Source: a virus. From it: a DNA stretch of 21,991 nucleotides. Positions 6,020 through 8,003 of this stretch are shown here, piece after piece. Each line of letters starts with the position of its first letter. The stretch's first letter is position 1. The stretch spans positions 1 through 21,991 of IMG/VR virus record IMGVR_UViG_3300009180_000242. The stretch is one strand, 5' to 3'. The notes under the pieces are model-generated. The model had not been told where the DNA came from. It saw nothing but the letters and a program-made list of their open reading frames with translations, and ran no database searches. The position numbers and the translations under genes were made by a program.

Positions 6020-6565
6020 ATGAACTTCACCCAAGACTGGTTTGACCATAACATTCAGCATTTAATAAAAATTGTTGCTAACCTTCCTAGTAAAAAACGA
6101 TTCTTAGAAATCGGTTGTTTTGAGGGTAGGTCTACCACATGGTTTTTACAAAACGCATTGGATGATGATGGATTGATCCATTGCGTAGATCTTTTTACCG
6201 TATATGAAGGTCAAGACGAATGTTTTATGAATAATATTGAAGAGGTAATTAAACCTACCCAGTCTTTATCATTCTTGCGCGGTACATCCTACCAAGGTTT
6301 AGCTCAATTGATTATGGAAAATAATCCATACGACTTCATCTATGTTGATGGCAGCCATACTGCTTACGATACATTGGCTGATGCTTGCATGGCTTGGGGT
6401 TTACTCAAGAGCGGTGGAGCTATGGTGTTTGACGATTACTTATGGAAACCTGAGCTAATTGATTATGACCGTCCTCAAATGGCTATTGATGCATTCTTAA
6501 ATATCTATCGTAATCAGTTAGATGTAGTTCATCGTGGTTATCAGATTGGAGTGGTAAAAAAATGA
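6020..6565 (+). CDS. Class I SAM-dependent methyltransferase (Methyltransf_24-like)
   Basis: A 181-residue Rossmann-type methyltransferase. FLEIGCFEGRSTTWFL is the glycine-rich SAM loop (about residues 28-43), HCVDLF the acidic end of strand 2, and YDFIYVDGSHTAYDTLADAC plus SGGAMVFDDY the motifs of the later strands. This family includes small-molecule, sugar and macrocin-type O-methyltransferases; the substrate cannot be told. AAAGGAAAAC precedes the ATG. The stop is coupled to the next gene by ATGA. It may modify a nucleotide, glycan or protein for the phage. Confidence 0.88.
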   Translation: MNFTQDWFDHNIQHLIKIVANLPSKKRFLEIGCFEGRSTTWFLQNALDDDGLIHCVDLFTVYEGQDECFMNNIEEVIKPTQSLSFLRGTSYQGLAQLIMENNPYDFIYVDGSHTAYDTLADACMAWGLLKSGGAMVFDDYLWKPELIDYDRPQMAIDAFLNIYRNQLDVVHRGYQIGVVKK

Positions 6566-6801
6566 ATACAGAACAAGCGGTATTAGATGCATTTAAACGT
6601 GGTAAAGCGTTTGGTTTTGCTGAAGGCATGAAGTCTATGAGGTTAAAAGAATCGCAACCATATCCAACAGTAAAACAATACGCTGACGCATTAGCTGAAA
6701 TAGAAGCGTTGAAACAAATACTGGCTTATGAAGGTATTGGAGTAAGTCAAGAATATCTAGATGAGTGCGTTGCAGAGTTAAGAAAGGCACAAGAGAAATG
6801 A
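6562..6801 (+). CDS. 79-residue hypothetical protein with LRKAQEK tail
   Basis: MNTEQAVLDAFKRGKAFGFA begins a helical protein that continues with ALAEIEALKQ and ends ELRKAQEK. Two DNA segments are shared exactly with the minus-strand block at the left end: 26 bases coding ALAEIEAL (6688-6713, same as 507-532) and the 23-base gene-junction repeat at its end (6779-6801). It therefore looks like a mosaic derived from those mini-genes. It is coupled by ATGA to both the methyltransferase upstream and the cytosine methylase downstream. Function unknown. Confidence 0.85.
   Translation: MNTEQAVLDAFKRGKAFGFAEGMKSMRLKESQPYPTVKQYADALAEIEALKQILAYEGIGVSQEYLDECVAELRKAQEK
6688..6713 (+). repeat. 26-base segment shared with 507-532
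   Basis: Exact inverted-orientation copy of the minus-strand segment in the coiled-coil gene, read in the same frame (ALAEIEAL). Confidence 0.9.
6779..6801 (+). repeat. Gene-junction repeat, copy F on the + strand
   Basis: Identical over 23 bases to copies A and B at the left end. It codes the RKAQEK tail of the 79-residue gene and includes the ATG of the cytosine methylase, so it sets the start of that enzyme at 6798. Confidence 0.9.
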
Positions 6802-8003
6802 GATACCTTTCGGTATGCTCTGGAGTAGAAGCAGCGAGCGTAGCCTGGCACGATCTAGGCTGGACGCCCGTAGCATTCTCAGAGATAGAGAAGTTCCCAT
6901 CAGAAGTATTAGCGCATCATTACCCTACTGTCCCCAATATGGGCGACATGACTAAATATAAGGAGTGGAATCTTGACTCAGTTGGACTTTTGGTTGGAGG
7001 CACTCCCTGCCAATCCTTTAGCGTTGCCGGACTCCGTAAAGGACTTGAAGACCCAAGAGGGAATCTTGCCTTATGCTATATTGGATTACTTGACCGCTTT
7101 AGACCCAAGTGGTGCATATTTGAAAACGTGCCAGGCCTCCTCAGTTCAAACGGAGGACGGGATTTTGGTTCCTTCCTTGGGGCGTTGGCAGAATGCGGGT
7201 ATGGGTTCGCGTATCGGGTGCTTGACGCTCAGTATTTCGGAGTTCCCCAGCGACGCAGGCGTGTCTTTGTTGTCGGATGTCTTGGAGACTGGGAATCTCC
7301 TGCCAAAGTTTTATTTGAGCGGGAAAGCTTGCGCAGGGATACTCCGCCGAGCAGAGAAACGGGGAAAGAAACTGCCGGCTTTGCTCCAAGCAGCTTTGGA
7401 AACTACGGTGAGGGAGTCGGGACATTGCGACGAGATGGAGGAGATCTCGGAGGAGGATCAGAAACCTTAGTCACTACCAATCGATTAGTGGCGTTCGGTG
7501 AATACTCTACTGATGGTACGGCTAGCACTCTGAAAGCCCGTGCCTACAAGGATCATACAGATCTCGTAGTTTACGAGACTCACCCAGCAGACTCCAGAGT
7601 TAAGCCAATGGGTGATGTATGCCAAACAGTGACCTCAAGATGGGGTACAGGTGGCGGTAACGTTCCATTGGTGGGTGCGTATTCAATCCGTGAAGATGCT
7701 AAGGCCAATAACTTTAGCGCTACTCCATTGGATGTAACGCCAGCCCTCCAAGCATTGCGCCCATCGGTTCAATCACATCATGCTCAGACTTTTGTAGCTC
7801 AGCATATGGCAGTTCGCCGCCTCACTCCAACAGAATGCGAGCGCTTGCAGGGTTTCCCTGATGGCTATACTGATATTCCTTGGCGTGGTAAGCCTGACTC
7901 TCCTGATGCCCCTAGGTACAAGGCTATGGGTAACTCAATGGCTGTCCCCGTAATGGCATGGATCGGTAAACGAATTCAGAAAGCTGAAGATGGACTTCTA
8001 TAG
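6798..8003 (+). CDS. dcm: DNA cytosine-C5 methyltransferase
   Basis: A 401-residue enzyme that would methylate cytosine in phage DNA, probably protecting it from restriction. Motif I is SVCSGVEAASVAW near the N-terminus; motif IV GGTPCQSF carries the catalytic Cys (residue 71); motif VI is ENV (109-111); motif VIII QRRRR (141-145); motifs IX-X are RRLTPTECERLQGFPDGYT and YKAMGNSMAVPV near the C-terminus. The variable segment between (about 160-340) is the target-recognition region. The start at 6798 overlaps the upstream stop as ATGA; an upstream in-frame codon at 6765 would lie inside the previous gene. Bases 6973-7470 also appear to code for a second protein in another frame. Confidence 0.95.
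   Translation: MRYLSVCSGVEAASVAWHDLGWTPVAFSEIEKFPSEVLAHHYPTVPNMGDMTKYKEWNLDSVGLLVGGTPCQSFSVAGLRKGLEDPRGNLALCYIGLLDRFRPKWCIFENVPGLLSSNGGRDFGSFLGALAECGYGFAYRVLDAQYFGVPQRRRRVFVVGCLGDWESPAKVLFERESLRRDTPPSRETGKETAGFAPSSFGNYGEGVGTLRRDGGDLGGGSETLVTTNRLVAFGEYSTDGTASTLKARAYKDHTDLVVYETHPADSRVKPMGDVCQTVTSRWGTGGGNVPLVGAYSIREDAKANNFSATPLDVTPALQALRPSVQSHHAQTFVAQHMAVRRLTPTECERLQGFPDGYTDIPWRGKPDSPDAPRYKAMGNSMAVPVMAWIGKRIQKAEDGLL
6960..6975 (+). promoter_or_regulatory. Internal ribosome-binding site and TTG start inside the methylase gene
   Basis: AAGGAG at 6960-6965, a 7-base spacer, then TTG at 6973. This is an ideal spacing for initiating the overlapping frame within the methylase coding region, where no ribosome-binding site is otherwise needed. 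Confidence 0.65.
6973..7470 (+). CDS. Overprinted protein encoded in an alternative frame of the cytosine methylase
   Basis: A 165-residue frame wholly inside the methylase gene. The C-terminal half reads like a real conserved protein: WQNAGMGSRIGCLTLSISEF, then SLLSDVLETGNLLPKFYLSG and KACAGILRRAEKRGKKLP (residues about 98-135). From memory, a hypothetical phage family with SLSDVLE, YFLS, KACxGILRRAEKRGKxLP occurs widely, and its codons read in the other frame give the methylase stretch VLFERESLRRDTPPSRETGK, so the overlap itself seems conserved. AAGGAG seven bases before the TTG start supports translation. Function unknown. The alternative, a chance open frame, is made less likely by the family resemblance. 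Confidence 0.7.
   Translation: MTQLDFWLEALPANPLALPDSVKDLKTQEGILPYAILDYLTALDPSGAYLKTCQASSVQTEDGILVPSLGRWQNAGMGSRIGCLTLSISEFPSDAGVSLLSDVLETGNLLPKFYLSGKACAGILRRAEKRGKKLPALLQAALETTVRESGHCDEMEEISEEDQKP

Follow-up and report, generated by a model that had tools for sequence, protein, structure and literature searches.

A gene under selection in the +1 frame of a phage C5 cytosine methylase may encode the enzyme's missing element as a partner subunit

Introduction

The prevailing view of overlapping genes is that most of them arose de novo as new proteins. Overlapping genes as such, split C5 cytosine methylases, the two-polypeptide enzyme M.EcoHK31I and the annotation of a "beta subunit" in phage MM1 are all already known, and they provide the closest comparisons for the gene pair described here, which we found in a 21,991-base IMG/VR virus record, the whole of which is referred to below as the window.

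M.EcoHK31I resembles the arrangement proposed for the window locus in being a natural C5 methylase of two polypeptides, the smaller of which is reportedly read from another frame within the gene of the larger. Its motif IX is found in the small polypeptide (PMC3404938). M.AquI also consists of two chains, divided near the variable region (PMC3404938), but these are consecutive halves, the small chain comprising motifs IX-X, and there is no nested gene. In Dcm-type methylases of solved structure (PDB 3lx6 and 3me5), an element homologous to the one discussed here follows motif VIII in the same chain and frame, again with no nested gene. The nearest arrangement is that of pneumococcal phage MM1 (DQ113772), in which orf13 and orf14, annotated as the alpha and beta subunits of a C5 methyltransferase, stand in the same +1 relationship and share the motif SLSDILEEEVDERYFLS. 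MM1 differs from the window in belonging to a divergent branch of Firmicutes phages, in its shorter core, and in a bare annotation that does not note homology to the in-cis element of other methylases. We know of no experiment on MM1 orf14. In phage P1, the nested frame is present within the C5 half of dmt but the nested ORF is unannotated; that C5 half, unlike the window enzyme, is fused to an adenine methylase, and dmt has been reported to be non-essential (PMC10695390). An out-of-frame gene in a phage methylase gene is also known from the ShiLan domain, a hidden HNH endonuclease (PMC11855218), although this is a homing-endonuclease insertion rather than an element derived from the methylase. 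Finally, phrog_16143, to which the nested protein is weakly matched, is an uncharacterized phage family labeled DNA methyltransferase, without a specific function.

Results

A second reading frame within the methylase gene

The outer gene of the window (6798-8003, plus strand, with ATG at 6798 and the stop at 8003) encodes a Dcm-type C5 cytosine methylase of 401 aa. Membership is established by the ordered motifs PCQ, ENV, QRRRR, motif IX and GNS, and by profile scores above cut-off for PF00145 (E=3e-55, 188 bits, cut-off 22) and TIGR00675 (189 bits, cut-off 101). Motifs IV, VI, VIII, IX and X are all read in frame 0 in the translation. A second, small methyltransferase of another kind (Methyltransf_24, 6020-6565) is encoded a short way upstream of the gene.

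Wholly within this gene, on the same strand and in the +1 frame relative to the methylase, lies an ORF of 165 codons (6973-7470, TTG start, TAG stop), the product of which we propose to be a small partner (beta) subunit. The TTG follows by 7 nt a Shine-Dalgarno site, AAGGAG (6960-6965, plus strand), which is at the same time the methylase Lys-Glu codon pair AAG GAG. A preliminary description had located the frame and its start signal correctly, and its statement that GGTPCQSF, ENV and QRRRR stay intact in the overlap is borne out by the translation, in which GGTPCQSF, ENVPG and PQRRRRV are unbroken in the methylase frame. Motif VIII (PQRRRRV in translation, 7245-7265, plus strand) overlaps the nested frame directly 5' of the conserved element described below, while motif IX (RRLTPTECERLQGFPDGY, 7815-7868, plus strand) is read in frame 0 beyond the overlap, at a synonymous o/e of 1.1-1.2. 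With motif IX in the methylase frame and the nested ORF ending at 7470, the motif-IX test of membership fails, and we therefore do not claim that the pair is of the M.EcoHK31I type. Membership of the MM1 type is satisfied, by a tblastn match to orf14 and by the same register of motif VIII and LSDILE.

The start signal is conserved. Among the 35 relatives with Lys-Glu at this site (the remaining 34 lack it there and were not scored), 33 use the spelling AAGGAG, compared with 27% expected from codon use (P=8e-17), and in every one of the 35 an ATG, TTG or GTG follows the Shine-Dalgarno site by 7 or 10 nt. In-frame stops just upstream of the nested start are found in many relatives.

AlphaFold2 models the N-terminal two thirds of the nested protein with low confidence, pLDDT being mostly about 50 or less, and the last third as a confident small helical unit of short helix, turn, long helix and helix. 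The low-confidence region corresponds to the N part of the gene (6973-7230, plus strand), which also shows the weaker extra constraint, and the last predicted helix, residues 136-150, is encoded at 7378-7422 (plus strand; pLDDT about 90).

The nested frame is under selection

Our first set of relatives was picked by similarity to the nested frame and was thus biased, so the analysis was repeated with an unbiased set, gathered by searching with just the final 65 residues of the methylase, which lie outside the overlap. This set holds 69 distinct full-length methylases, and a recognizable nested frame is present in 68 of them; the exception, L240, has the core joined to methylase parts. Not one of 200 synonymous-codon shuffles of the window methylase leaves the nested frame free of stops, the mean being 4.8. 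Across the 69 relatives, stops per sequence in the alternative frame number 0.26 in the N part, where 3.03 are expected, and 0 in the core, where 1.01 are expected; outside the ORF there is no depletion, either upstream (1.33 vs 1.09 expected) or downstream (7.39 vs 6.36). A frame left open by chance is thereby ruled out. Synonymous divergence in the same relatives is about 1.2 (o/e) on either side of the overlap, 0.93 in the N part and 0.36 in the core, falling locally to 0.23 in the nested core (7263-7420). Control C5 methylases, nearly all of which lack the nested frame, have ordinary numbers of +1 stops (8.8 observed vs 9.5 shuffled).

Variability in the core by methylase codon position is 0.45/0.28/0.24, and since position 1, which is the loosest, corresponds to nested-frame position 3, the nested frame dominates there. 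The same codon periodicity is seen in P1-like phages and in bacterial loci, and none in control methylases without the nested core. In the frame-0 stretch VLFERESLRRDTPPSRETGKE (7308-7370, plus strand), methylase position 1 is the most variable (0.42-0.58 vs 0.16-0.35 at positions 2 and 3) and the methylase reading is largely a passenger of the nested frame. The preliminary description had taken VLFERESLRRDTPPSRETGK for a recurring methylase sequence; its recurrence is genuine but owes most to the alternative frame, which fixes the nucleotides concerned. Codon-position rates, which had been suggested as a check, place constraint on the nested frame as well as on the methylase frame.

Distribution and annotation of nested homologues

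Homologues of the nested frame were found in 506 stretches of the genome collection, at least 598 in viral contigs, 154 phage records and 537 plasmid records, the last mainly P1-like. When the homologues were mapped, as the preliminary description had advised, each of the 190 loci recovered by similarity to the nested frame proved to carry it at +1 within a C5 methylase, and no free-standing nested homologue was found among these loci or in the sampled genomes. Two candidates for a free-standing copy were rejected: L290 is located in a broken methylase, and gp104 of Mycobacterium phage Thibault lies within a methylase interrupted by HNH genes. In the latter (L324, Thibault 60195-65371), two annotated HNH genes split the methylase and the nested core is gp104 itself, of 81 residues. 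Of the 249 genomes sampled from one phylum, a C5 methylase is present in 137 and a nested match in only 6, one of which (L291) is a stop-ridden shadow; the nested frame therefore marks a subset of C5 enzymes. It is almost unannotated, the exceptions being MM1 orf14 ("C5 methyltransferase beta subunit") and Thibault gp104.

The window protein is matched to phrog_16143 at E=4e-5, and 110 of 111 nested proteins match the same family. The "common hypothetical family" recognized in the preliminary description is thus real, with the qualification that every member examined lies inside a methylase. Sequence searches of Pfam, NCBIfam and PDB with the nested protein gave nothing useful. In the BFVD library, the two best matches are Thibault gp104, a known carrier, and a phage cytosine methylase. 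A likeness to sigma-factor domain 2 (Foldseek, VIA-align) amounted to weak helical matches only, with Z about 5, and was not used. Literature searches found no paper on this nested methylase gene.

Membership of the overprinted gene pairs rests on homologues of the second frame and on selection in it, both of which are satisfied. Synonymous suppression, codon periodicity, stop depletion, a conserved ribosome-binding site and start, and wide spread together support the view, already put forward in the preliminary description, that this is an old overlapping pair with both frames constrained. We hold it to be close to certain that the nested frame is a true coding sequence under selection, production of the protein itself being inferred.

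Several loci depart from the common arrangement. A divergent Firmicutes-type branch (L335 and L028), with an NRER motif VIII and a KxFPL linker, has the nested arrangement with a shorter core. In L240 (133-1524), a single ORF comprises the methylase N-half (motifs I-VI), the nested core and motifs IX-X, with motif VIII in another frame, and may be a natural fusion, a decayed gene or an assembly error. In L129 (2024-3176), L097 (2550-3702) and L283 (975-2547), the nested frame runs in frame into the C-terminal motifs of the methylase, giving an apparent two-ORF split methylase, in L283 with a run of N between. The joins in L097, L129, L240 and L283 could be assembly errors or a different architecture. 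L025 (1725-4532) has a methylase frame of 936 codons with an intein-like interruption at the PCQ motif (GGTPC/FASGTLVTLDRGLVPIEEV).

The nested core resembles an in-cis element of ordinary methylases

The core of the nested protein has the motif LSDVLE..LPxKYYLSxKACxGILRR, which resembles an in-frame stretch lying about 32 residues past motif VIII in ordinary methylases, for example VGDILEKNVDQKYTISDRLWAGHQRRK. In the window this conserved element, LSDVLETGNLLPKFYLSGKACAGILRR, is read in the nested frame at 7270-7350 (plus strand), where the sequence comparisons indicate homology to the small-domain element found in cis in ordinary Dcm-type methylases. Alignment of the nested core with the in-cis element by hhalign gives a probability of about 94-95 and P of 4e-8 to 1e-7, at a score of 41.0 compared with a best of 22.6 among 400 column shuffles; one column-shuffle null contained an outlier, apparently an artifact, and the 22.6 maximum is that of a clean repeat. 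Against unfiltered bacterial controls the element scores more weakly (probability 53) because many of these controls lack it. An HMM profile of the element matches 98 of 111 nested proteins and, at 8 bits or more, not one of the 69 frame-0 methylases of the lineage, and a membership test for the in-cis element LxDIL..KYxLS..RR fails in the methylase chain of the window lineage, the element being found in the +1 frame instead.

A viral relative, L379, bridges both forms: its nested frame ends LSDILENDVADKYYLSSKAVAGIMKHKENHLAKGNGFG and is 47% identical to the in-cis element over 51 aa and 34% identical to nested proteins over 90 aa. The order of short helix, turn and long helix matches between a model of a canonical methylase and the nested protein, and the solved Dcm structures 3lx6 and 3me5 contain the element. 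The region of homology spans only about 27-50 residues, and the canonical set came to attention through its likeness to the core before being filtered by a five-residue pattern. With these caveats, we find that the alignments establish homology of the nested core to the small-domain element of ordinary Dcm-type methylases.

The element is in cis or nested, never both

In a survey of 364 methylases, the element occupies the +1 frame in 276 and is in cis in 49; 38 have it in neither position and 1 (L365) apparently in both. As a carrier of both versions L365 was rejected, its +1 frame being full of stops, and it serves as a warning that the nested profile can respond weakly to motif shadows. The survey thus demonstrates that the element is either in cis or nested, never both. 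The 38 methylases with neither version imply that the element is not needed by every C5 enzyme.

In cis, motif VIII and the element are separated by a median of 96 nt (32 residues); in all 54 nested relatives measured, the distance from the Pro codon of motif VIII to the nested-frame Asp codon is exactly 31 nt. The difference corresponds to a net loss of about 65 nt and a change of frame. In a tree of the N-terminal half of the methylase, grouping the nested-frame genes into one clade is not rejected (p-AU 0.99, better than the free quick tree). From this spacing we infer a deletion history, in which a net deletion of about 65 nt with a frame change would have joined motif VIII to the element while putting the two out of frame with each other; the methylase frame would later have been restored downstream, with the element surviving as a separate gene.

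A putative partner subunit and its alternatives

A part lost from the methylase chain, strongly selected, and never encountered away from the enzyme acts most simply on that enzyme. When a C5 methylase is divided between motif VIII and the recognition domain, its pieces can reassemble in trans (PMC3404938), and because this split point is the junction concerned here, a partner subunit is favored. In the mechanism we propose, the nested protein would be translated from its own ribosome-binding site inside the methylase codons and would dock, as a beta subunit, on the methylase at the junction of motif VIII and the recognition domain, there completing or controlling the enzyme; translation from the same message would keep the subunit in step with it. 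Of the two functions guessed at in the preliminary description, a methylase partner is favored by the homology of the core to a C5 element, and the anti-restriction factor is without evidence. We give this reading of a small partner made from the same message a qualified preference, its action in trans being inferred, with no evidence of expression or binding. Against it stand the TTG start in the window and the weaker constraint and low-confidence structure of the N-terminal 95 residues.

The nested gene might instead be real but encode a protein that works independently of the enzyme, perhaps a small autoregulator that binds nucleic acid, controls the methylase message or promoter and reuses an old methylase helix. 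Small regulators exist in some methylase systems, and the core is helical and basic (RRAEKRGK) with confidently predicted helices. A separate regulator could move, however, and this one is never found outside the methylase gene; its core, moreover, is homologous to a methylase element rather than to a regulator family known from the Pfam and PDB sequence searches, which gave nothing useful. We consider an autoregulator unlikely, though it remains credible.

A second alternative is that ribosomes enter the nested frame by programmed frameshifting, or that it is translated as a polypeptide joined with parts of the methylase and not as a separate protein, as might be suggested by L097, L129 and L283, in which it continues into the C-terminal methylase motifs, and by L240, in which it lies between the methylase halves. 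The kept ribosome-binding site and start, together with the upstream in-frame stops of many relatives, favor separate initiation over frameshifting; motif VIII and the element share nucleotides, so that one shifted product cannot keep both whole, and in the window the nested frame stops before the recognition domain. Such a product is improbable, and separate initiation of a partner subunit is retained.

It is more improbable still that the nested gene is an anti-restriction or anti-defense factor made together with the methylase: many carriers are phages, and phage methylases often give protection against restriction, but no anti-restriction family match to the nested protein was found in Pfam, PHROGs or NCBIfam (an absence that does not exclude one), and homology to a methylase element is the simpler reading. 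Least credible of all is the absence of any second protein, with the open frame merely reflecting methylase conservation or a signal in the DNA or RNA. Parts of the N-terminal pattern do follow from methylase motifs (GK(T/M) from WENV, for instance), but this reading is already contradicted by constraint and stop-depletion data, with 3-5 stops in synonymous shuffles where almost none occur and a +1-frame triplet periodicity in the core, neither the depletion nor the periodicity being seen in control methylases.

Discussion

What seems to be new here is the breadth of this arrangement, the demonstration of selection in both frames, and the identity of the nested protein as the enzyme's own missing element. 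We judge it reasonably probable that this is a same-strand overlapping pair in which the nested product is the missing element of the methylase, acting as a separate partner subunit; the production of that subunit, its binding and the deletion history are inferred. That a whole lineage, including phage P1 Dmt, lost a structural element from the chain and keeps it nested as an obligate or regulatory subunit acting in trans is a proposal toward which we lean only slightly.

If this is true, a protein encodes its own missing part inside itself, and the pair would be a naturally split enzyme compressed into a single segment of DNA. The resemblance of the nested protein to an exported part of the outer protein would constitute a different route to gene overlap, in which an enzyme may have exported one of its own parts into a hidden reading frame. 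Since the nested gene has a wide distribution but is hardly ever annotated, the annotations of P1-like phages and of many other phage methylases probably lack a gene, and expression of such methylases from recoded DNA would drop the partner unnoticed. The nested gene is directly testable in a laboratory phage.
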